Source: Psychromonas sp. L1A2 (GTDB lineage: Bacteria > Pseudomonadota > Gammaproteobacteria > Enterobacterales > Psychromonadaceae). Taken from it: a DNA stretch of 64,000 bases. Below the pieces are notes generated by a model. That model did no database searches, was not told the origin of the DNA, and saw only the letters and a program-made list of their open reading frames with translations. The stretch's first letter is position 1. Every line of letters begins with the position of its first letter. This document shows positions 45,539 through 58,703 of this stretch, one piece after another. The position numbers were made by a program, and so were the translations under genes. The DNA is taken from NCBI RefSeq assembly GCF_009828855.1, contig NZ_WUAG01000001.1:2170001-2234000 (forward strand), written 5' to 3'.

Positions 45539-48500
45539 TTAAGCGCTAGCCTTAAATAACTCACTTAAACTTGCACTGCATGTAACTTCTGCAGCGGTTA
45601 TTTTACTGATGATTTTATTATTTTGATCAATCAATAACAGATCAGCAAATACACTTTGTCCGGTTGTTTTAATGATATTGAGTTTTATAAAGAAAAATTC
45701 ATCCACTTTCACTTCTCGGAACACCTGCCAAGCTGCAGTACTGGTAGGTAAACTACCCGATCCCATCTGCTTACTTGTCCATACCAACATCGCTTGATAA
45801 ACCAAGTCATTGGCAAAAACATTGCTTTCTTCAAGTAAAAACTCACCCTGAGCTTGAGTAACTGATTTATCAATAACACATTCCAGTAATAAGCCTGAAT
45901 CATCTAATTGATGAATATGCTTAATACCTTGTAGACTCAGACCATGAAATAAACTGCCATCAACGTATAATGATGCTGCTTGTACAGATTGTTTTTTAAC
46001 GAGTTTAGGTAAAATACCTTGATATGTTAATGGTGTATTTTCAACTAATGGTTTAGCAAGATTCACCGTACTTTTATAATGAAAAACAGGTTTACCTTGT
46101 TTATTTTCACTGCCCACCGTCACTTCAATACGTAAAGTATTGTCAGATTCTTTGATTGTTTTGCTGTTAAGCACTTTATGATCGAGGATCTTAGTATCAA
46201 TAACATATTCACCAGCCTGTGAGCCGTCAAAAACAATACCTTTAAACAGTTTAAAGTCTTCAATACCTTGATACTGATATTCTGGGTATAAGCTCTCACA
46301 GGTTGATTTTAACCATGCAATAGCACAAACCGTTGGTAAGACTTGCTGACCATCAATTTTGTGATCGACTAACAAAGCATTATCTAAATGATTAAAGGTT
46401 TTAATCTGTTGATGACTTGATTCTCTCACTACATTTTCATTATCAGCCTTTTGATCAACAATACTTTGATCCACAATACTTTCGCTATCAGTACCTGACA
46501 TATCAGTTCCCACAACAATCTGCACACAACGATTATGTTTAGCCGCTAATTCACTGACTAATAAGCTTGCGCCAGATTGTACAGGGATAATATAAACACC
46601 ACGTTCATCAAACATACGTTTAAGTTCAGGTGTTACCATCCCGCCATCCCAAGGACCCCAGTTGAAACTTAATACCTGCGTTGTTGGGTATAACGCCTTA
46701 AATCGGTAAGCCGCTTTATTAAGGATCTCATTAGCAATTGCATAATCTGACTGAGCTGGATTGCCATAAAAACCGGCAGCAGATGAAAATAGTACTAGAT
46801 GCTTAAGCTTTTCTAACTCACAACAAGCTAATAAGGCATTCAATCCTTCGATTTTAGTGTTATAAACTTGGTCAAATTCCGCTAATGTCTTTTGTTCGAT
46901 AAGCTTATCAGCCAACACCCCTGCGCCATGTATAACACCAGTAATTGGTCCCCATAAATCACAGATAGGATTAATAGCCTGTTGAAGCTTTTCTTTGTCA
47001 CATACATCCGCAGAAACATATTCAGCAATACCACCTAATGTTTCAATCGCTTGTAATGTTTGTGTGATTTCTCGATTAGCTAATACAGGTCTAATCATCT
47101 GCTTAATTAATTTAGGACTTGGCTTTTCACCACTATTTATTAGGTGTTGCATTGCTGCTTTCTTTAAATAACCTTCAGTGGCACTACTTAATGACCAATT
47201 ATCTTCTTGCGCTTGATAACGAGAGCGACCTAGTAAAATAAATTTACATTGATACTGCTTAGCAATTTCAATAACACAATGCGCTGTCACCCCTTTTGCG
47301 CCGCCGCTAACCAGGAAGACTGCATCTTGATCTAATTGATTTCCACTTTCTAATTGATAACTATCTGTTTCTTTTGCAACTAAAGATAAGCGTCCTTCAG
47401 TGTTGAAACCCACTTCAACTGGCAGACATTGTTTATCATTTAATTCACCAACGACAATCTTCGCCACTTTATTGGCATTATATTTAGTGGGAATATCTAC
47501 AATACGGCAAAACACATTATCCCATTCATGCGCTAACGTTTTTACTAACCCAGATAAGCCACCTTGTACAAGATCTGCTTTTTTATCAATATTCTGAGTA
47601 GCAAAATCACCACCTTGGCGTGTTAACACTAAAAACGATGCACGGTCACCGTTATCTTTTTCATTAATGTTTTGATTAAGCTTAGTTAGCTTAGCCAATA
47701 AGAAAGCCAACTGTAAGCCTTTCTTATACTGACTCTCAAAGGCAATGCCTTCTACAGCCGTTTTAGGATGTAAATAGATAACTGACAACCATTGCGCTTG
47801 TGTTTGTAATATCTGGTTTAATGTTTGCTCAGTTAACTCAGATAAACTCACCTGTAAAATTGATTTATTAAAGGCTTTAGTGATTTTACTTTTTACCCAA
47901 CTCGGCGTTAATACGGTAACTGTCCAACCTAATGCTGATAATTCGTTAGCTGTTGCTACTCCACTATCTAATCCATCATTTACTAATAGCAGATGTTTGT
48001 TTTCAACACTTGAGTTAATACACTCAAGTGCAGCAAGCTTTTTTATTTCCACCGTTGCACTTGGTGAAGGATCTAGCACAATCGATTTTTCTGGTGTTGG
48101 CTTAACAGGTGTTTCTTCATTCGCAACATTCAATGAACAATGAGCATTCACTATTGGACCTGTTTGTACTGATTGCATATAACAAATGATTTCATCCAGA
48201 GTCCGCATTTGCGATAACTGCTCAGCATCTAATTCTGGTAAGTCGGTGATTTCATCTTGTACTGCGCCTAGAATCTCAACTCGTTTGATAGAGTCGATAC
48301 CTAAGTCCGCTTCCATATCCATGCTTAGTTCTAGCATTTCAGTTGGATAACCTGTTTTATCCGCCACTACTGATAACATTGTCTTTTCGATAGTTTGTGT
48401 ATCGATAGACGACGTTGCACTAGCAACATTTGATTCAATATTAGTCGTTGTATTAGTAGGATTAACAGCATCTATAGAGCTAACAACAACAGATCCCATT

Positions 48501-51500
48501 ACTGAATTCATGTAAGTGACGATCTCAGCTAAGGTACGCATTTGTGATAACTGCTCAGCGTCTAATTCTGGTAAATCGGCGATTTCATCTTGCACCGCCC
48601 CTAGAATTTCAACACGTTTAATAGAATCGATACCTAAGTCTGCTTCCATATCCATGCTCAATTCAAGCATTTCTGTTGGGTAACCTGTTTTATCCGCCAC
48701 TACTGATAGCATTGTCTTTTCGATAGTTTGTGTATCGATAGACGACAATGCACTAGCAACACTTGATTCAATATTAGTCGTTGTATTAGTAGGATTAACA
48801 GCATCTATAGAGCTAGCAACAACAGATTCCATCACTGAGTTCATGTAAGTGACAATCTCAGCTAAGGTACGCATTTGCGATAACTGCTCAGCATCCAATT
48901 CTGGTAAATCGGTGATTTCATCTTGTACTGCACCTAGAATCTCAACTCGTTTGATAGAATCGATACCTAAGTCCGCTTCCATATCCATGCTTAATTCTAG
49001 CATTTCAGTTGGATAACCTGTTTTATCCGCCACTACTGATAACATGGTATTTTCAATAACGTTAATGCCGATTGCTTGTGTATCGATAAATGACGTTGAA
49101 CTAACAACTGGTGATACTGGATTAGACACAACAGATCCCATCACTGAGTCCATGTAAGTGACGATCTCCGCTAAGGTACGCATTTGCGATAACTGCTCAG
49201 CGTCTAACTCTGGTAAATCGGCAATTTCATCTTGTACCGCCCCTAAAATTTCAACGCGCTTTATAGAGTCGATACCTAAGTCTGCTTCCATATCCATGCT
49301 TAATTCCAACATTTCTGTTGGGTAACCTGTTTTATCCGCCACTACTGATAGCATAGTGTTTTCAATAACGTTAATGTCGATTGCTTGTGCATCGATAAAC
49401 GACGTTGAACTAGCGACAGTTGATACTGTGTTAGCCGTTGCATTAGTAGGATTAACAGCACCTGCAGAGCTCGACACAACAGTTCCCATCACTGAATTCA
49501 TGTAAGTAACGATCTCCGCTAAGGTACGCATTTGTGATAACTGCTCAGCATCTAATTCTGGTAAATCGGCGATTTCATCTTGCACCGCCCCTAGAATTTC
49601 AACACGTTTGATAGAATCGATACCTAAGTCTGCTTCCATATCCATGCTCAGTTCCAACATTTCTGTTGGGTAACCTGTTTTATCAGCCACTACTGATAAC
49701 ATAGTATTTTCAATAGCTTTTGTATCGATAGATGTAGCTGAATTAACAACAGTTGATGCTGGGCTAGAGATAAAAGATCCCATCACTGATTTCATGTAAG
49801 TGACGATCTCAGCTAAAGTACGCATTTGTGATAATTGCTCAGCATCTAACTCAGATAAATCGGCGATTTCATCTTGCACCGCCCCTAGAATCTCAACACG
49901 TTTAATAGAGTCAATACCTAAGTCCGCTTCCATATCCATGCTTAGTTCTAGCATTTCAGTTGGGTAACCTGTTTTATCAGCCACTACCGATAACATAGTC
50001 GTTTCAATAGCTTTTGTATCGATAGACGATGTTGAACTAGCGATGGATGATGCAGTATTAGCAGAGCTCGACACAACAGATCCCATCACTGAGTTCATGT
50101 AAGTGACGATCTCCGCTAAGGTACGCATTTGTGATAACTGCTCAGCGTCTAACTCTGGTAAGTCTGCAATTTCATCTTGCACCGCCCCTAGAATCTCAAC
50201 ACGTTTGATAGAATCGATACCTAAGTCCGCTTCCATATCCATGCTTAGTTCCAACATTTCTGTTGGATAACCTGTTTTATCAGCCACTACTGATAACATA
50301 GTGTTTTCGATGGCTTGAGCTGAGCCTCTTAATGCACCACTTAATGGCACCACTTCGTCATTCCGTTTGTTAACTGGCTGAATATCAACTGATGGTTTAG
50401 CTTGAGCGGATTGAATGGTTTGATGTGTAGCTTGTAACTGCTGTTGTAAATTTAAGGCATTAACAGGCGTTGCTTGTGGTGTACTTTTTGAAGTAGTTGG
50501 TGTCGTTGTTTTACCATTTTCACTGGCATTTGAAGCAGCATCATTCGAAATAACATCATGACTTTGAGTATTTGATACCGTATTCAACATTTGTTGCATA
50601 TTATCAGTTTGATTATTCAGATACGTTTCATGAACACGCAATGTTTCCGTTTGGAAATCATGATACATCGCTAACGTTCTATCTAACCCTTCCGGTAATG
50701 TTTGTTGACCCGCTTGTGCTGCTAATACACTTTTAAAAGTATCGGCATATTGATTCGGCCCTTCCAAGTAAGCTTGGTGTACGGCCAGTAATTCAGATTG
50801 ATGCTTAACAAATTGATCGACACTATTTTCTATACTTGAAGCTAATTGTTGATTGTCATTATTAGCTGGTGCACTTTCTTTAATGGACGAGCCTTGAATC
50901 GATGAAGGTTGATTCACTAACGGCTGACCTTGAGCATCAACATAAACGATCTTTTCTACAATTTTTTCAACCACTATCTCTTTAATCACTTCTTTTACAA
51001 TGGGTGTTGATGGTTGTGTATTAGAGATTTTCCAGTTATCAGTTAAACCATCTTCAAAAACTTTTTTAGTTTTAGGACTAACATAAGAGGCGCCTGATAG
51101 CTTCATGGCTAAAGGTGACTTTTTAGGTGCAATGGTTGGACGAGCAATGGCAGAGTATGGGTCAATATTATCCAGTTCTACACCTAATACTGCTAATTGA
51201 ATAGCCGCTTGACGTAATTGTAAATCAGCACTTTGTTTAGCATTGCTATTGGTTGCAATGCTAAACACGTCTGCTTTATCTCCTAAAATATTATCAACAA
51301 GTCGAGTCAGCACATTTTTAGGGCCAAACTCTACAAAAATACGTCCACCAGCATCGTATAAATTATTAATTTCTTTACTAAATTGTACTGACTGTAAAAT
51401 ATGTTCTTTTAACGATGTTTTAATAGCCGCTTGGTCTTCACTATGTGCTTCACCAGTCGCATTTGCATAAACAGCTACCTTAGGTTTGTTAAAAGTGACA

Positions 51501-53956
51501 GAATCGATTGCTTTAGCGAATGGTTGTTGTGCATGTGCAACCAAAGGAGTGTGGAATGCAGCAGAAACAGGCAATGCAATAACCTTAAAGCCATTGTCAG
51601 TTAACTGTGAAGTGGCTGTCGCCATTGCTTCACTGCTACCCGCAATCACTGCTTGATTATTCGCATTATAGTTCGCGATACTAACATCTTTGATTGTTGA
51701 AATTTGCAGTTCAATCTCTGCGACATTACCAATGACTGCAGCCATCGTTCCGGCATCAAGATCACTGTTTTGCGGTGATGACATTGCTTGGCCACGCGCC
51801 ATCGCTAAGGCCATGTAATCAGTTTCTGAAATAACCTCTGCTGCCCATAATGCAGTTAACTCACCAAAACTATGACCCGCCATAAAATCAGCTTTAAAAC
51901 CTGCTTGCTTAAAGGTATTAAATAGACCAACAGAGAAGCTACCAATAGCCGGTTGTGCATACTGTGTTAAACGTAAATCCAACTCCTGCTGAGATCTTTT
52001 TTGATCGTCGAACACAGGAATGGGATAAACTATATTCGATAAATTAGCTTGGCCAGCTTGATGGAATTGTTGATCAATCGACACCTGACTTGCCATCATA
52101 CTTGGGAAATGACAAACCAATTCGCGTCCCATATTGACATATTGCGAACCTTGACCTGAGAATAAAGCTACGACTTTACCGGCTGTTTTTAATCCCTGTT
52201 CTCGATAGTAAATACCGGTTGGCGTTGACCACTCTTTACTCTGTTCAGTTTTTAATTGTTTAATAATTTGTTCAAGCATTTGTTTAGCTTGTGTTGCATT
52301 TTTTGCTACAAAGCCACAACGAACGTGATCTTCTTTGATCTTTTTAACTGGATGAGAAACAACTAACTGGTTAAACGCATAAGGTTGCAGTTCAACATCA
52401 ACATTGATCGCCTTTAATTCAGCTTCAATCGTATTAATTAAGTCAGCTTTGCTATTCGCAGCGATTAAGAATGATTGTGCAACTTCATTTAAACGATAAG
52501 CACCCTGTTGAGTTGACGTATATTCTTCCAACACTAAATGGAAGTTAGTACCACCAAAACCAAATGAACTAATACCTGCTTGGCGTTTTATACCATCAGC
52601 ACGAGGCATCCAAGGGCGCGTTTCAGAGTTGATATACAGGGGAGTATTTTCAATGTCTAAGTTTTCATTAGGTTTATCAACGTTAATGGTCGCTGGTAAT
52701 ACTTTATGGTGCAATGCCAGTGCTGCTTTGATTAAACCTGCTGTCCCTGCAGCTGCTTTAGTATGACCAACTTGTGATTTAACAGAACCCAATGCGACAT
52801 GCTGTTTTTGATCATTATTCTCACTAAACAGTAATTCTAAACCTCGGAACTCAGCAGCATCACCTGCTTTAGTCCCCGTACCATGGGCTTCGATTAATCC
52901 ACACGTTCTTGGATCAAAACCAGCATCTTGATAAGCACGCTTTAAGGCTTTTAATTGCCCTTCTGGACGTGGTGCATAAATAGATTTAAATTTACCATCA
53001 GACGAACTACCAATACCTTTAATCACTGAGTAGATACGGTCGCCATCGCGTTCAGCATCTTCTAAACGTTTTAATGCAATCATCCCCACGCCTTCACCGA
53101 TCATCATACCGTTTGATTTATCATCAAAAGGACGAATACAATCGCCATCCGTGAACGCAGGTGTTTTAGAGAATGACATGTACATGAAAGGCGAGTTATC
53201 ACAACAGATACCGCCTGATAACATCATATCTGAACGATATTCCAAAAGGTCTGACACCGCCATTTTAATAGCCGCTAAAGAACCGGCGCACGCAGCATCA
53301 ACCACACAGTTGGTGCCACCTAAGTTAAAACGGTTAGCGATACGCCCCGCAATAACATTACCTAACATGCCTGGAAATGAATTTTCTTCCCACGGAATAT
53401 AAGCACTTTTAAATTTGTCAACAATGATATTGGTATCTTCAGCATTTAAGCCAGACGCTTTTAATACTTTTTCTAATACCGGACCTTGCAAGCGAGACAT
53501 TAATTGTCCGCCCTGCTTTTGACCGCCGCCAACACCTAATGTAATACCCATTCTATCGCGGTCAAAGCTACTTTCTTCACTGACACCCGCATCTGCTAGT
53601 ACGTCACGCGCAACCACTAATGCCATTAACTGTGTAATATCGGTTAATTCTAATATGTTCGGCGGTAAGCCAAACTCCATTGGGTCAAAGTCAATTTCAG
53701 GTAAGAAACCACCACGTTTACAATAACTCTTATCCGCTTCTTTTTTATCAGCTGAATAATAGTCATCGATCGCCCAACGATCTTCAGGTACATCTTGAAT
53801 GCCATTAACAGAGTTAACGATGGTATCCCAAAATTGTCCAAGGTTTTTACTCTCCGCAAAAACCGAAGCCATACCAACAATTGCAATCGGCGTTTCTTGT
53901 AAGCGAGAGTTAATACGCTTATCTGACGCGGTGTTGGTGGTTTGCTTTTTTGACAT
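45539..53956 (-). CDS. pfaA: PfaA: KS-MAT-(ACP)7-KR-DH-like PUFA synthase
   Basis: A 2805-residue PUFA synthase backbone. Domains: ketosynthase (about 15-490; Cys223 in DAACAGSL, His in EAHGTGTKAGD and GHTKAAAG), malonyl-CoA:ACP transacylase (about 610-950; Ser696 in GHSFGELTALW), seven acyl carrier proteins (phosphopantetheine serines 1249, 1350, 1448, 1564, 1667, 1778, 1889, each in LGIDSIKRVEILG), ketoreductase (about 2200-2480; SGGAKGVTAH, SDYAIANEI), and a C-terminal hot-dog region with an H-x3-G-x4-P motif (HKIDGQQVLP near 2530). I choose ATG 53956 (MSKKQTT) because GGAG lies 8 bases upstream; an ATG 6 codons earlier lacks one. Second gene of the pfaR-A-B-C-D run. Confidence 0.97.
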   Translation of the reverse strand: MSKKQTTNTASDKRINSRLQETPIAIVGMASVFAESKNLGQFWDTIVNSVNGIQDVPEDRWAIDDYYSADKKEADKSYCKRGGFLPEIDFDPMEFGLPPNILELTDITQLMALVVARDVLADAGVSEESSFDRDRMGITLGVGGGQKQGGQLMSRLQGPVLEKVLKASGLNAEDTNIIVDKFKSAYIPWEENSFPGMLGNVIAGRIANRFNLGGTNCVVDAACAGSLAAIKMAVSDLLEYRSDMMLSGGICCDNSPFMYMSFSKTPAFTDGDCIRPFDDKSNGMMIGEGVGMIALKRLEDAERDGDRIYSVIKGIGSSSDGKFKSIYAPRPEGQLKALKRAYQDAGFDPRTCGLIEAHGTGTKAGDAAEFRGLELLFSENNDQKQHVALGSVKSQVGHTKAAAGTAGLIKAALALHHKVLPATINVDKPNENLDIENTPLYINSETRPWMPRADGIKRQAGISSFGFGGTNFHLVLEEYTSTQQGAYRLNEVAQSFLIAANSKADLINTIEAELKAINVDVELQPYAFNQLVVSHPVKKIKEDHVRCGFVAKNATQAKQMLEQIIKQLKTEQSKEWSTPTGIYYREQGLKTAGKVVALFSGQGSQYVNMGRELVCHFPSMMASQVSIDQQFHQAGQANLSNIVYPIPVFDDQKRSQQELDLRLTQYAQPAIGSFSVGLFNTFKQAGFKADFMAGHSFGELTALWAAEVISETDYMALAMARGQAMSSPQNSDLDAGTMAAVIGNVAEIELQISTIKDVSIANYNANNQAVIAGSSEAMATATSQLTDNGFKVIALPVSAAFHTPLVAHAQQPFAKAIDSVTFNKPKVAVYANATGEAHSEDQAAIKTSLKEHILQSVQFSKEINNLYDAGGRIFVEFGPKNVLTRLVDNILGDKADVFSIATNSNAKQSADLQLRQAAIQLAVLGVELDNIDPYSAIARPTIAPKKSPLAMKLSGASYVSPKTKKVFEDGLTDNWKISNTQPSTPIVKEVIKEIVVEKIVEKIVYVDAQGQPLVNQPSSIQGSSIKESAPANNDNQQLASSIENSVDQFVKHQSELLAVHQAYLEGPNQYADTFKSVLAAQAGQQTLPEGLDRTLAMYHDFQTETLRVHETYLNNQTDNMQQMLNTVSNTQSHDVISNDAASNASENGKTTTPTTSKSTPQATPVNALNLQQQLQATHQTIQSAQAKPSVDIQPVNKRNDEVVPLSGALRGSAQAIENTMLSVVADKTGYPTEMLELSMDMEADLGIDSIKRVEILGAVQDEIADLPELDAEQLSQMRTLAEIVTYMNSVMGSVVSSSANTASSIASSTSSIDTKAIETTMLSVVADKTGYPTEMLELSMDMEADLGIDSIKRVEILGAVQDEIADLSELDAEQLSQMRTLAEIVTYMKSVMGSFISSPASTVVNSATSIDTKAIENTMLSVVADKTGYPTEMLELSMDMEADLGIDSIKRVEILGAVQDEIADLPELDAEQLSQMRTLAEIVTYMNSVMGTVVSSSAGAVNPTNATANTVSTVASSTSFIDAQAIDINVIENTMLSVVADKTGYPTEMLELSMDMEADLGIDSIKRVEILGAVQDEIADLPELDAEQLSQMRTLAEIVTYMDSVMGSVVSNPVSPVVSSTSFIDTQAIGINVIENTMLSVVADKTGYPTEMLELSMDMEADLGIDSIKRVEILGAVQDEITDLPELDAEQLSQMRTLAEIVTYMNSVMESVVASSIDAVNPTNTTTNIESSVASALSSIDTQTIEKTMLSVVADKTGYPTEMLELSMDMEADLGIDSIKRVEILGAVQDEIADLPELDAEQLSQMRTLAEIVTYMNSVMGSVVVSSIDAVNPTNTTTNIESNVASATSSIDTQTIEKTMLSVVADKTGYPTEMLELSMDMEADLGIDSIKRVEILGAVQDEITDLPELDAEQLSQMRTLDEIICYMQSVQTGPIVNAHCSLNVANEETPVKPTPEKSIVLDPSPSATVEIKKLAALECINSSVENKHLLLVNDGLDSGVATANELSALGWTVTVLTPSWVKSKITKAFNKSILQVSLSELTEQTLNQILQTQAQWLSVIYLHPKTAVEGIAFESQYKKGLQLAFLLAKLTKLNQNINEKDNGDRASFLVLTRQGGDFATQNIDKKADLVQGGLSGLVKTLAHEWDNVFCRIVDIPTKYNANKVAKIVVGELNDKQCLPVEVGFNTEGRLSLVAKETDSYQLESGNQLDQDAVFLVSGGAKGVTAHCVIEIAKQYQCKFILLGRSRYQAQEDNWSLSSATEGYLKKAAMQHLINSGEKPSPKLIKQMIRPVLANREITQTLQAIETLGGIAEYVSADVCDKEKLQQAINPICDLWGPITGVIHGAGVLADKLIEQKTLAEFDQVYNTKIEGLNALLACCELEKLKHLVLFSSAAGFYGNPAQSDYAIANEILNKAAYRFKALYPTTQVLSFNWGPWDGGMVTPELKRMFDERGVYIIPVQSGASLLVSELAAKHNRCVQIVVGTDMSGTDSESIVDQSIVDQKADNENVVRESSHQQIKTFNHLDNALLVDHKIDGQQVLPTVCAIAWLKSTCESLYPEYQYQGIEDFKLFKGIVFDGSQAGEYVIDTKILDHKVLNSKTIKESDNTLRIEVTVGSENKQGKPVFHYKSTVNLAKPLVENTPLTYQGILPKLVKKQSVQAASLYVDGSLFHGLSLQGIKHIHQLDDSGLLLECVIDKSVTQAQGEFLLEESNVFANDLVYQAMLVWTSKQMGSGSLPTSTAAWQVFREVKVDEFFFIKLNIIKTTGQSVFADLLLIDQNNKIISKITAAEVTCSASLSELFKASA
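48185..50310 (-). repeat. Tandem array of seven near-identical ACP-coding units
   Basis: Seven copies of a DNA segment with the same ACP core occur head to tail inside pfaA. The phosphopantetheine Ser codons are centred near 50211, 49908, 49614, 49266, 48957, 48624 and 48291, giving spacing of 303, 294, 348, 309, 333 and 333 bases. The cores, about 80 codons each, are almost identical in protein and differ mostly at synonymous positions. Linkers are Ser/Thr/Val-rich. The last two linkers share a similar sequence of some 35 residues, a recent duplication. Confidence 0.97.
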
Positions 53957-53994
53957 TATTTTCTCCAATGGCATTACTATTAATTTGCTGAATT

Positions 53995-54828
53995 TTACTG
54001 TTCACTCAACAAATGAAATCTGCTTAAAAATTCATTATAATTTGCCGCTAATAAACGACGAATATGGAAAGGTGCGTGCTTTAAAACATGTTTCATATAA
54101 CGTCTTGCAGCATCCGCTTCATCGTCTTGATATAAATCCACATAAACCCACTGACTGTCAGGATCATTAGCGATTAATAGGCGATGTTGCTTAATATTTT
54201 TTTCTGACTTTATATCTGACTTTTTATCCAATTCAGGCAACGTTGTTACGCTCACTTGCACGACATCTGAACAGGTTAAGCTACGTGTTTTCGCTGTCCG
54301 AGCGTGATTAGCAAGCTCACTGCTTTGTTCTTTGTTCAGTTCTTCGAGGCGCAATTGATTTAGGACTTCTAACATAGCTTGTGGATTAACCACTGAATTC
54401 ATTACTTTGTCGGAAGTATTATCTTGAATCGCAACGCTTACCTGTTGCTCAAGCTCAATCAATTCACCAGCCGGATCAATATCGGCTAATTTAGAAACAC
54501 CATGTCGTTTCAGACAACGTTGTAAGCCTGCACGGGAAGTATTTTCATTAATAAATTGACGACACACTTTTAATAACTCGTCGAGTGAGAGCATCAAATG
54601 GGTACGTAATTGCACTACAACGTATTGTTGTTGCAAGGTAAGTGTTGTTTTAGAATGTTTTGGGATATGAGAAGCATCTTCAAGCGTTTCACGTTGACGC
54701 CATTTACGCACAGTAGATTCAGATATTTTTAAAAGGCGTGCTAATACTGCCGTCGGCAATTCAGAAGCGCGAATAAAAGCTCTTATTTCTGGAGTGGTTG
54801 TTGCGTTTTTATGCTGCTTGACAGTCAA
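53995..54828 (-). CDS. pfaR: PfaR-like regulator of the pfa locus (transposase-type HTH)
   Basis: A 277-residue protein just upstream of pfaA on the same strand, the position of the positive regulator pfaR described in Shewanella and relatives. The N-terminus (about 15-80) has an IS481-like helix-turn-helix: ELPTAVLARLLKISESTVRKW. The middle is acidic and flexible; the last 70 residues contain WVYVDLYQDDEADAARRYMKH. The frame begins with a TTG at 54828; no ATG lies near it and no clear ribosome binding site precedes it, so translation initiation may be weak or the true start lies elsewhere. It ends 38 bases before pfaA. The role is inferred from position and family. Confidence 0.75.
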   Translation of the reverse strand: MTVKQHKNATTTPEIRAFIRASELPTAVLARLLKISESTVRKWRQRETLEDASHIPKHSKTTLTLQQQYVVVQLRTHLMLSLDELLKVCRQFINENTSRAGLQRCLKRHGVSKLADIDPAGELIELEQQVSVAIQDNTSDKVMNSVVNPQAMLEVLNQLRLEELNKEQSSELANHARTAKTRSLTCSDVVQVSVTTLPELDKKSDIKSEKNIKQHRLLIANDPDSQWVYVDLYQDDEADAARRYMKHVLKHAPFHIRRLLAANYNEFLSRFHLLSEQ

Positions 54829-55080: not shown

Positions 55081-55902
55081 TTAAACACGGTTTAACACTT
55101 TACGAGTTGCAGATGTTTTAACGTGCGTGTAGTACAACGGTAAACCAACTAATAATAAACCACCTGCTAAATTACCCAATACCGTTGGAATTTCATTCCA
55201 TAGTAAATAATCGTAAACAGTGAAATCACCACCCATGATCATTGAGAATGGGAATAAAAACATATTAACAATTGAATGTTCAAAACCCATGTAAAAGAAC
55301 AACATAACTGGCATCCACATTGCCGCCATTTTACTACCTGCTGAAGTAGAAATTAGTGCACCAACAACGCCCATTGACACCATCCAGTTACATAACATGC
55401 CACGTATAAAGATAGTAAACCAGCCACTGATGCCGTGTTCTTGATAACCTAATGTACGAGATTCACCTATGCTACTTACTTTAGCAGCGATAACACCACC
55501 ATCTGCTGAGTAACCATAAGTTAAGATGAATGACATGAAAAATGCCGTGGTCATCGCCCCAGCGAAATTACCAATAAACACTAATCCCCAATTTCGCATA
55601 ACACCCGAAAGCGTCACACCCGAACGTTTATCAAGTAACGCTAACGGTACTAAAGTAAATACACCTGTTAGCAAGTCAAACTTCATTAGATACAACATAA
55701 TAAAACCAACAGGGAACAAACAAGCTCCTAATATTGGACTACCGGTTTTTGTTGCAACTGTGATAGCAAATACCGCTGCCAGTCCCAAAATAGCGCCAGC
55801 CATAAATGCGCGTATTAACGTATCCTTAGTTGACATGAAAACTTTTGATTCTCCAGTATCAACCATTTTTGTAACAAATTCTGTAGGTTCTAAATATGAC
55901 AT
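55081..55902 (-). CDS. FNT-family (formate/nitrite) channel
   Basis: A 273-residue inner membrane protein with six predicted transmembrane helices, of the FocA/NirC family. Recognisable elements are AFMAGAILGLAAVFAITV, FPVGFIMLYL, GNFAGA, RGMLCNWMVSMGV (with NWMV in the family's N-x-x-V position) and GFEHSIVNMFLFPF. It is encoded 134 bases downstream of cyanase in the same direction, before a terminator. The channel could carry formate, nitrite or a related monovalent anion; with cyanase next door, cyanate or bicarbonate are attractive candidates, but this is inference. Confidence 0.9.
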   Translation of the reverse strand: MSYLEPTEFVTKMVDTGESKVFMSTKDTLIRAFMAGAILGLAAVFAITVATKTGSPILGACLFPVGFIMLYLMKFDLLTGVFTLVPLALLDKRSGVTLSGVMRNWGLVFIGNFAGAMTTAFFMSFILTYGYSADGGVIAAKVSSIGESRTLGYQEHGISGWFTIFIRGMLCNWMVSMGVVGALISTSAGSKMAAMWMPVMLFFYMGFEHSIVNMFLFPFSMIMGGDFTVYDYLLWNEIPTVLGNLAGGLLLVGLPLYYTHVKTSATRKVLNRV

Positions 55903-56036
55903 AATTTTCTCACTTTTAAGTTTGGTAAGTGTTTATATAAAATACATTAATAAATCACTTACCTTTATATTCAACGTACTTGTTGAGGAACAATCCTTGC
56001 GTACCTATCTTCAATTTCTTAATCTATTTAAAAATT

Positions 56037-56477
56037 TTACCAAGCTTTATAAGGCAAAAACTTTCCATTAAGCGTAACAATCACTCGATCTCCTTTAGGA
56101 TCTTCTTGTTTGTCTACATCCATTGTAAAATCAATAGCACTCATGATGCCATCACCAAATTTTTCTTGAATAACTTCTTTTAACGTATCGCCATAAACAC
56201 CAACAACTTCATAAAGGCGGTAAATTAATGGATCTTGCGGTACAGCCTTATCCCATTCCTTTGTTGGGTTCTCAAGCAAAGTCGCTTTGCTATCTATCGG
56301 TAAGTCTAAGTATTTAATCAATTTATCAGCAGTTTCTTCAGTAAAACTGTTCATACCTAAGCAAGCAGAGGTCGTCCATACAATAGACATACCTATCGCA
56401 TCAGAAATAGCTTCCCACGTTAGCTCTCTGTCTTTTTTAATTGCAAATATTGCTTCAGTTACATCAATTTTTTTCAT
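56037..56477 (-). CDS. cynS: Cyanate hydratase (cyanase)
   Basis: A 146-residue cyanase that converts cyanate plus bicarbonate to ammonia and two CO2. N-terminal POU-like helical domain (about 1-75), C-terminal catalytic domain. Catalytic residues Arg87, Glu90 (IYRLYEVVG) and Ser113 (IMSAIDFTMD) have the same 3 and 23 spacing as Arg96, Glu99 and Ser122 of the E. coli enzyme. Length close to the 156 aa of E. coli CynS. Start ATG 56477 with AAGGAAA. First gene of an operon with an FNT channel; expression probably depends on the sigma54 promoter at 56650 and the divergent activator. Confidence 0.96.
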   Translation of the reverse strand: MKKIDVTEAIFAIKKDRELTWEAISDAIGMSIVWTTSACLGMNSFTEETADKLIKYLDLPIDSKATLLENPTKEWDKAVPQDPLIYRLYEVVGVYGDTLKEVIQEKFGDGIMSAIDFTMDVDKQEDPKGDRVIVTLNGKFLPYKAW

Positions 56478-56649
56478 TTTGTTTCCTTACTGTTTTTATT
56501 TACCGTTTTATAATGTGTGAAATAGCACGGTAATTAAGATTAAACCGCCCGATAATGGTGCAAAAATATTAACCAATATTATCTAACGTCTCGCTCTACC
56601 ACTGCTAACAACCTTCTTTATTAAATTAGTAGTTGTCTGTTTTATAGAT

Positions 56650-56665
56650 TGCATTAAGTATGCCA
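56650..56665 (-). promoter_or_regulatory. Sigma54-type promoter for cynS-FNT
   Basis: Minus-strand TGGCATACTTAATGCA: a perfect TGGCA -24 element and TGCA at -12, with GG-N10-GC exactly. It lies about 170 bases upstream of cynS, implying a long 5' leader. Confidence 0.65.
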
Positions 56666-56741
56666 ATAGACAAGAAAGCATTAACTTATTGTTTTTTAAT
56701 TAATTTAAAAATACTTAATGGAATAAAAAACCACGAAAAAA

Positions 56742-56753
56742 CGTTGAACAACG
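56742..56753. promoter_or_regulatory. Palindrome 1, candidate activator site
   Basis: CGTTGAACAACG is a perfect inverted repeat, 77 bases beyond the -24 box of the cynS promoter, a suitable place for an enhancer-type site. Confidence 0.5.
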
Positions 56754-56770
56754 ATTTACAGTTGCTAACA

Positions 56771-56786
56771 CGACGAAATATCGTTG
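56771..56786. promoter_or_regulatory. Palindrome 2, candidate activator site
   Basis: CGACGAAATATCGTTG, with arms that match palindrome 1 (CAACGA-like) at all but one position. It immediately precedes the plus-strand sigma54 promoter, so it could mediate autoregulation as well. Confidence 0.45.
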
Positions 56787-56790
56787 ACAC

Positions 56791-56806
56791 TGGCTTAATA
56801 GTTGCT
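56791..56806 (+). promoter_or_regulatory. Sigma54-type promoter for the activator gene
   Basis: TGGCTTAATAGTTGCT: TGGC at -24 and TTGC at -12 with GG-N10-GC. It is 47 bases upstream of the activator start codon, suggesting autoactivation. Confidence 0.6.
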
Positions 56807-56852
56807 TTGTCATAAGCTATTAATTTTGGATATAAAATAAGGCTGTACTTAT

Positions 56853-58703
56853 ATGTTGAACCAACTGTTCTTAAACGCTCCAACGGCCATGTTACTGATT
56901 GACCCGATCAACAACCAAGTATTGGCAGTTAACCAATTAGCTGAAGAAATATTTGGATTAAACGAAAGGGATTTAAAACAAAAGAAAGTCACTCAGCTAT
57001 TCCAAAGCTGCATAGACAAGTTACATTTATTTACACAACAAGTGTTAGCTCAAGGTTCAGCTTGGAGTAGTGATTTGTTTATCGATATAGCACATAAAAC
57101 TATACATTTAGGCATCAATGCCACTCAATTAAAGAGTCATATTTTATTGAGTTGTGAAGACAGTCATATAACCTTTAAGCGACACTTTAACGCAATTATT
57201 GAATCTAATTATCAATCTGGTTTTTTTCATTGGAATAAAGATGAAACTATTTTTGAGCAAATAGAACGACAAAATCAACTTTTACTGACAGCCGTCGGTG
57301 ATGGTATATACGGTGTTGATTCGCAAGGTAAAACCACTTTTGTGAATGCAGCTGCGGAACACATTCTGGGTTGGACTAAACCCGAATTAATGGGTAAGAA
57401 AATACATGACATTATTCATCACTCACACCTTAATGGCAGTCACTATGAAGTACATACCTGCCCTATTTATGAAGCTTTTAATGACGGAGCCGTACACAGT
57501 GTTGATAACGAAGTATTTTGGTCGAAAACAAACAAACCGATTCCAGTGGAATATACCAGTACCCCACTCACTGAAGAGGGTTCTTTAATCGGTGCGGTCG
57601 TTATCTTTCGAGATATCACCGAGCGTAAACGAACTCAAGATAAACTATTAACAGCACTAAAAGAAGTTGATGCCCTTAAACAACGCTTAGAGATGGAAAA
57701 TGCTTATCTACTTGAAGAGATAAATGCAGATTTTAATCATCAATACATGATTGGTAAAAGTATTAAAATCAAACATATGATGAACCAAATCGAATTAGTC
57801 GCCCCCACTAATGCCAATGTGTTAATTATTGGAGAATCGGGTACAGGTAAAGAGCTTATTGCACGATCCATCCATGAAGCGAGTCAACGTAAAGTAAGGC
57901 CACTCATTCGCGTTAACTGCGCAGCCATTCCATCAGAATTATTTGAAAGTGAATTTTTTGGCCACGTTAAAGGCGCTTTCTCTGGGGCAATTACAGATCG
58001 AGTAGGCCGCTTTGAGTTAGCCGATGGCGCCACTATCTTTTTAGATGAAGTAGGCGAAATACCACTACAACTACAAGGTAAATTATTACGAGTATTACAG
58101 GAACAACAATTTGAACGTGTCGGTGAGTCTAAAACACGCCATGTTGATGTGAGAGTGATTGCAGCAACCAACAGAGATTTAAAAAAGTTAGTTGAAAAAA
58201 ACAAGTTTAGAGAAGATCTGTATTTTAGGTTAAATGTATTCCCTATTAAATCACCGCCATTACGAGAACGAATGGATGATTTACCTTTATTAGTAAAACA
58301 CTTCATCGATAAGATTTGTTTACAACTCAATCAATCAATACCTAAAGTCCCTTTATCGCAAATGCAATATTTACAAGATTATGCATGGCCGGGCAACATT
58401 CGTGAACTTGAAAACATTATAGAGCGCCAGGTTATTCTGTCTAAAAGTAATAAATTGAGTTTTGATTTTTTAGGCAGAGAAACAAATATAGAAAGCCGTA
58501 CTGTTAGCCGAAACCTTAATACCAATGTGATCAGTGCAATACAACATAAACAATTGGAGAAAAGTAATTTAGAACAAGCTTTAAGGGATTGTAATGGAAA
58601 AATTTATGGTGAAGATGGTGCAGCAGCATTACTGGGATTAAAGCCCACAACGTTAAGCTCTAAATTAAAAAAATATGCTATCAACCGACTCGTATTTGTT
58701 TAA
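56853..58703 (+). CDS. PAS-domain sigma54-dependent activator
   Basis: A 616-residue enhancer-binding protein. Two N-terminal PAS domains (about 1-110 and 145-260; second with GDGIYGVDSQGKTTFVNAAA, split: GDGIYGVDSQG, TFVNAAAEHILGW), a coiled linker, an AAA+ domain (about 300-530) with Walker A GESGTGKELIA, a sigma54-contact loop GAFSGA (Ser instead of the commoner Thr), Walker B IFLDEVGEI, and a C-terminal Fis-type helix-turn-helix (LGLKPTTLSSKLKKY). There is no receiver domain, so it probably senses a ligand or redox state through PAS. It is divergent from cynS-FNT and is the likely regulator of that operon. Confidence 0.92.
   Translation: MLNQLFLNAPTAMLLIDPINNQVLAVNQLAEEIFGLNERDLKQKKVTQLFQSCIDKLHLFTQQVLAQGSAWSSDLFIDIAHKTIHLGINATQLKSHILLSCEDSHITFKRHFNAIIESNYQSGFFHWNKDETIFEQIERQNQLLLTAVGDGIYGVDSQGKTTFVNAAAEHILGWTKPELMGKKIHDIIHHSHLNGSHYEVHTCPIYEAFNDGAVHSVDNEVFWSKTNKPIPVEYTSTPLTEEGSLIGAVVIFRDITERKRTQDKLLTALKEVDALKQRLEMENAYLLEEINADFNHQYMIGKSIKIKHMMNQIELVAPTNANVLIIGESGTGKELIARSIHEASQRKVRPLIRVNCAAIPSELFESEFFGHVKGAFSGAITDRVGRFELADGATIFLDEVGEIPLQLQGKLLRVLQEQQFERVGESKTRHVDVRVIAATNRDLKKLVEKNKFREDLYFRLNVFPIKSPPLRERMDDLPLLVKHFIDKICLQLNQSIPKVPLSQMQYLQDYAWPGNIRELENIIERQVILSKSNKLSFDFLGRETNIESRTVSRNLNTNVISAIQHKQLEKSNLEQALRDCNGKIYGEDGAAALLGLKPTTLSSKLKKYAINRLVFV

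Follow-up and report, generated by a model that had tools for sequence, protein, structure and literature searches.

A putative CynF-type cyanate assimilation operon in Psychromonas with an FNT channel in the importer position

Closest described systems and the Psychromonas locus

The cynFABDS cluster of Pseudomonas pseudoalcaligenes CECT5344 is described as an operon containing the cyanase gene, preceded by a putative sigma54 promoter and by the divergent gene for CynF, a Fis-type sigma54 regulator essential for cyanase expression; a cynF mutant had no cyanase and made no use of cyanate (PMC6627978). These features recur in a 64,000-nucleotide stretch of the two-contig, 4.34 Mb genome of Psychromonas sp. 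L1A2 (contig NZ_WUAG01000001.1, positions 2,170,001 to 2,234,000; referred to here as the window), with an FNT-family anion channel where CECT5344 has the ABC importer CynABD. We consider this locus to be probably a sigma54-dependent, CynF-type cyanate assimilation operon in which the FNT channel, instead of the ABC pump, would serve as the importer. Its activator belongs to the cyn-linked group and is divergent from the cyanase operon, and the sigma54 promoter and operators between them are common to cynABDS loci; CynABD is absent from the operon and the FNT stands in its place, making the locus a variant and not a plain cynFABDS cluster.

The pairing of an FNT with cyanase also has precedents. 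In Candidatus Nitrososphaera gargensis and Nitrospira, focA/nirC genes beside cynS have been proposed to encode cyanate importers, and Nitrospirales genomes with cyanase mostly carry either an ABC transporter or NirC, 9.5% having both; these nitrifier pairs belong to other phyla, and in the available parts of the accounts neither a CynF activator nor an operator nor a kinase/phosphatase gene is mentioned (PMC10753782, PMC12342949). The preliminary description of the window, made from the sequence alone, had suggested that it may be a previously undescribed module for the uptake and degradation of cyanate (or nitrite/bicarbonate) under a dedicated sigma54 activator; the cyanate module remains the best reading, with the transport part putative, and the claim of novelty fails for those parts, CynF and focA/nirC–cynS, that are in print. 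The E. coli cyn operon has a LysR regulator and an MFS transporter, in contrast to the sigma54 activator and FNT of the window. Common to both is a cyanase with a linked transporter gene and a regulator, CynR in E. coli (PMC6627978). Sigma54 control of a cyanase had been contrasted with such LysR systems; with CynF published, there is no support for calling it unusual (PMC6627978). As far as literature searches go, what is new is an FNT replacing the ABC importer beside an activator of the CynF lineage, with the operators laid out in the same way, a combination both halves of which have precedents; among the papers covered, mostly outside subscription journals, and in the parts available, no FNT in place of CynABD under CynF and no triple operator was described.

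The cynS gene (56037..56477, − strand) encodes a cyanase of 146 residues with the Pfam domains Cyanate_lyase and CYNS_N. It scores 206 bits against the NCBIfam cyanase PRK02866 (cut-off 150), passes the curated cyanase models and matches solved cyanase structures. Arg87, Glu90 and Ser113, whose equivalents in E. coli are catalytic, are all kept, so that the enzyme is predicted to be catalytically intact, as had been proposed. Following cynS on the same strand is the FNT gene (55081..55902, 273 residues), and after it an intrinsic-terminator-like hairpin of 15 pairs (55013-54980, −), an order already recognized in the preliminary description. The 134-base gap between the two genes contains no terminator-like site. 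Within this gap (55903-56036), close before the FNT start, the perfect 8-bp arms of an inverted repeat (GGTAAGTG / CACTTACC) flank a loop of 24 bases. Divergent from cynS is the activator gene (56853..58703, +), whose product is composed, as initially described, of two PAS domains, an AAA+ domain and a Fis-type helix-turn-helix (Pfam PAS, PAS, Sigma54_activat and HTH_8).

ABC and FNT importers beside one activator lineage

Importers near cyanase were compared in a sample of 398 genomes of the phylum, 70 of them with cyanase. Cyanase matches numbered 71, of which a broken fragment (G794) was left out, and 70 loci were examined within 5 kb of cynS with identity thresholds of 45% for the ABC importer and 47% for the activator. 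Where the activator is present (n = 18), 12 loci carry the ABC importer and 6 an FNT, none carries both and none lacks both; the ABC version is spread over seven families and the FNT version over four. Both versions occur within one family, f196 (ABC in G1083, FNT in G755 and G1023). Overall, 20 of the 70 loci have the ABC importer only, 18 the FNT only, one both and 30 neither, the last an upper bound because several stretches end at contig ends; the remaining fetched locus had no cynS open reading frame. The single locus with both importers has no activator. With loci counted as independent and kinship ignored, Fisher tests gave p = 0.007 for the mutual exclusivity of the importers and p = 4e-6 for the association of the activator with an importer. 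Since the same kind of activator stands at loci of the ABC cyanate pump, the replacement suggests that the FNT does the pump's job here.

The grouping of the activators points in the same direction. A search of 369 genomes of the class, with three candidates scored per genome, returned 27 matches in 23 genomes; each of the nine best, with 634 bits or more, neighbours cynAB(D) or FNT–cynS, and the other 18 do not within the fetched stretches, some of which stop at contig ends. In a tree of 44 activators, 16 FNT-type rows fall among nine cynABDS-type rows. The FNT label requires two changes on this tree, both forced by well-supported branches, giving at least two exchanges between ABC and FNT. 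Branching away from the other 15 FNT-type rows is G755, in which activator, FNT and cynS are arranged in a different order and the FNT has 63% identity.

The sigma54-contact loop of the window activator (57972-57989) reads GAFSGA in place of GAFTGA, an unusual variant. All nine FNT-type activators inspected share this serine, and two further activators inspected read GAFTGA. In the N-terminal region, Pro18, Asn27 and Trp127 never vary among the cyn-linked activators, and 24 of 25 retain Trp71; a protein search with this domain returned close relatives only (26 matches among 167 candidates). The genome also encodes rpoN (sigma54). The closest paralog of the activator in the same genome (47% identity; contig 2, 114796-130646) is divergent from a Nit1C-type cluster encoding Nit6803 nitrilase, radical SAM, MSMEG_0572 and GNAT proteins. 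In Pseudomonas, this arrangement, with NitA as the regulator, has been reported for the assimilation of cyanide (PMC11049912).

The intergenic control region

Between the divergent genes are a sigma54 promoter of cynS–FNT (TGGCATACTTAATGCA, 56665-56650, −), an IHF-like site (AAACAATAAGTTA, 56682-56694, −; one mismatch against WATCAANNNNTTR) and three activator operators of the form ACGA-N4-TCGT, at 56733-56744 (one mismatch; 83 bp from the promoter), 56751-56762 (two mismatches) and 56773-56784 (exact). Two related palindromes had been noticed initially; the operators are three, with spacings common to relatives. All five elements are conserved across nine aligned intergenic regions. In 14 FNT-type loci the operators lie 82–98, 100–115 and 122–137 bp from the promoter, and in 12 of these 14 the IHF-like site lies 31–33 from it.

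The triple operator, with its sites 17–18 and 21–23 bp apart, is found with both importer types. It outscores all 200 single-base shuffles in 36 of 37 loci (16 FNT, 21 ABC; duplicates L132 and L155, and also L148 and L164, left out), the exception being L250, where 2 of 200 shuffles were as good. A sigma54 promoter lies 73–99 bp from it in 34 of the 37. As the operator spacing was set on the first loci, only the 14 loci fetched after the motif had been fixed (L302-L352; 12 ABC, 2 FNT) constitute an independent test, and all 14 pass. Allowing at most four mismatches, a limit exceeded by three of the 37 (L245, L250 and L315), a scan of 230 loci (3.07 Mb, with some overlap) gives the triple operator in 42; the activator is present in 38 of these, and the other four lie beside near relatives. 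Within the window the triple operator occurs once. In two ABC-type loci (L313 and L327) triple operators can be read on both strands and a fourth site is possible. Four related activators away from cyn genes (L251, L252, L255 and L256) also have ACGA-N4-TCGT operators, which therefore belong to a wider activator subfamily. The exact pattern AACGA-N4-TCGTTG occurs at one place in the genome (contig 2, in two registers), against 4 and 2 for a reversed control pattern, and no wider regulon is drawn from this count. The parts of the CECT5344 description that were covered make no mention of a triple operator (PMC6627978).

Across the whole window, sigma54-like sites with at most one mismatch are at chance level (30 matches against 28 expected), and motif matches alone were rejected as evidence. 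The case for the promoter is made by conservation; the scores of both intergenic sites were reached in none of 300 shuffles of the intergenic region. Opposed sigma54 promoters had been proposed here. The cynS-side promoter is borne out, being present in all 14 FNT-type loci examined, the window included. On the activator side, the element TGGCTTAATAGTTGCT (56791-56806, +) is sigma54-like in the window and of uncertain nature: GG-N10-GC is kept in five of nine aligned loci, and in the remaining four TGG and TTG are retained but the GC is missing. With the −12 GC not conserved, a sigma54 promoter on this side is doubtful. The element abuts operator 3, a position that would suit autoregulation; in CECT5344, by comparison, a putative sigma70 promoter is described for cynF (PMC6627978).

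In the mechanism that we propose, cyanate would act as the inducer, perceived perhaps through the N-terminal region of the activator. The activator would bind the three tandem operators (56733-56784), an IHF-induced bend at 56682-56694 would assist it, and sigma54 RNA polymerase would be activated at 56665-56650. Transcription of cynS and the FNT gene would proceed leftwards as one unit and end at the hairpin at 55013-54980. The FNT would admit cyanate into the cell, where the cyanase would convert cyanate and bicarbonate to ammonium and CO2, supplying nitrogen.

The FNT channel, its neighbours and competing explanations

The window FNT contains a full-length Form_Nir_trans domain (Pfam, 9.9e-64) and shares with FocA/NirC channels the fold family and the pore residues Thr91 (Thr79 in the window protein), Asn172, Phe202 and His209 (FocA numbering). 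It differs from them in having Leu78 in place of FocA Phe90 and Phe67 in place of FocA Leu79, and falls below both curated equivalog cut-offs (FocA, 125.8 against 290.1 bits; NirC, 47 against 293 bits). A second FNT in the genome, 53% identical, is linked to nirB. The window FNT belongs to a group with a clear identity gap: among 394 genomes of the order, 49 copies have at least 69% identity and the next at most 56%.

Of these 49 copies, 30 lie near cynS, and an FNT is close to cynS in 30 of the 44 cyanase loci of the order. The other 19 copies were fetched; 14 have an adjacent gene encoding a fusion of a PP2C phosphatase with a Ser/Thr kinase, and four have NirB nearby. From public genome records the best 80 of at least 590 FNT relatives were taken with 7 kb on either side; 78 had an FNT open reading frame and two had none under the filter used. 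Within this set, cynS lies near the FNT in 37 of 78 loci and is its commonest metabolic neighbour, compared with 10 loci with NirB-like genes (four of these above 50% identity). In a count of recurring neighbour families, generic ATPases, matched by CynD, occur in 14 loci, activators in nine and NirB in nine, and no further family exceeds five. Chance neighbourhood is ruled out by the pairing in both sets. The position of cynS relative to the FNT varies: it may be upstream or downstream, in between, or convergent. Mapped on the FNT tree, the label for linkage to cynS switches 24 times, compared with 41 in shuffles, and supported branches force at least 14 of the 24 switches. The linkage is therefore inherited in part, and in part it has been gained or lost on many occasions. 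In two loci (L148 and L069) a distant cyanase (48–50%) adjoins an FNT 90–91% identical to that of the window, and the enzyme gene may have been swapped there with the neighbouring FNT kept.

Several observations weigh against the CynF-type reading. Of 130 FNT loci, six adjoin nirB and lack cynS, and 55 have neither gene. Eleven pore positions are invariant in all 123 related FNTs, whether linked to cynS, to nirB or to neither, and in the nirB-linked paralog, so that the sequence gives no argument for cyanate and pore residues are uninformative as a substrate test. The genome holds other candidate importers: a CynX-like permease below its family cut-off (336.9 against 406 bits) and a CynA-like binding protein (32–37% over parts). 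In P. pseudoalcaligenes, cyanate may also enter through nitrate/nitrite transporters, and an unlinked cynX is described as having no part in its transport (PMC6627978). The activator is absent at 12 FNT and 8 ABC cyanase loci of the phylum sample, and 30 of the 70 have no importer of either kind nearby. The cyn-linked activators are set apart with moderate support (87/86 and 87/90) on a midpoint root, and both the order in which the two importers appeared and the direction of exchange hinge on where the root is placed. The CynF-type label itself rests on grouping with cynABDS-linked activators, CynF of CECT5344 (BN5_0438) being likened by its published description. A simple motif scan, run with no positive control, for the gltBD/hemE surroundings that would mark P. 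pseudoalcaligenes itself gave none in 21 loci. Lastly, the IHF-like site is at 33 in three of nine ABC-type loci, and one-mismatch IHF matches are common in these AT-rich regions.

On the strength of several of these points, the FNT could instead be chiefly a channel for nitrite, moving together with several genes of nitrogen assimilation; the operon would then be co-induced under nitrogen limitation, and cyanate would enter through CynX-like or ABC permeases. The relatives beside nirB, the identical pore of the nirB-linked paralog, the further candidate importers and the cyanobacterial FNT NitM, described as a nitrite uptake protein not inhibited by cyanate (PMC4390861), are all consistent with this. 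We regard it as unlikely, given that cynS, not nirB, is the commonest metabolic neighbour and that in the phylum sample all 18 loci with the activator lineage have an importer, either ABC or FNT and never both. Considerably less probable is a cyanate detoxification module with the FNT as an efflux or equilibration channel and not a nutrient importer: FocA is described as moving formate both ways (PMC8914244) and the genome also has the Nit1C-type cluster under the paralogous activator, but cyanate assimilation under ammonium repression is what has been published for the CynF system (PMC6627978), and the ABC transporter at the corresponding position is described as serving uptake. Least probable is that the FNT supplies bicarbonate, the co-substrate of cyanase; among solved structures it matches best LCIA ('Low-CO2 inducible protein'), a Chlamydomonas bicarbonate channel, but that match is weak (82.9 bits, with formate transporter 3kly next at 64.4), cyanase releases CO2 and the FNT occupies the place of CynABD in related loci.

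In the public-record set the PP2C–kinase fusion gene accompanies the FNT in 71 of 78 loci (for example, L051:5995-7716 and L110:7150-8862). No fusion gene adjoins the window FNT; the genome has one homolog some 180 kb from it that lacks a neighbouring FNT, and a second next to nirB. Near cynS-linked FNTs the fusion gene is found at 49 of 51 loci without the activator and at 8 of 18 with it, a contrast evaluated by a Fisher test that counts loci as independent, keeps genomes present in duplicate and takes in at least one locus cut by a contig end (L148). One possible, still tentative, interpretation is that a related FNT and the adjacent fusion gene make up an ancient pair, in which reversible phosphorylation would gate the anion channel and to which cyanase, and sometimes nirB, was added again and again; in the window lineage the fusion gene would no longer be adjacent, and a CynF-type activator, seen elsewhere with cyn operons of the ABC type, would have taken over control. 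Literature searches of the coverage given above found no description of a PP2C/kinase–FNT–cyanase unit.

Elsewhere in the window, at 45539-53974, is a gene for a large, PfaA-like polyunsaturated fatty acid synthase with seven LGIDSIKR carrier-protein motifs, after which comes a regulator-like gene (53995-54828).

Cyanate is a nitrogen source for many microbes, yet 30 of the 70 sampled cyanase loci have neither an ABC nor an FNT importer nearby. A role of FNTs in cyanate uptake has so far been based on gene proximity in nitrifiers; one regulator lineage accompanied by either importer, and never by both in the sample, is stronger indirect evidence and makes this role directly testable. The triple operator provides a sequence signature for finding the regulon, and the pairing of FNTs with a kinase/phosphatase gene suggests that bacterial anion channels may be controlled by phosphorylation.

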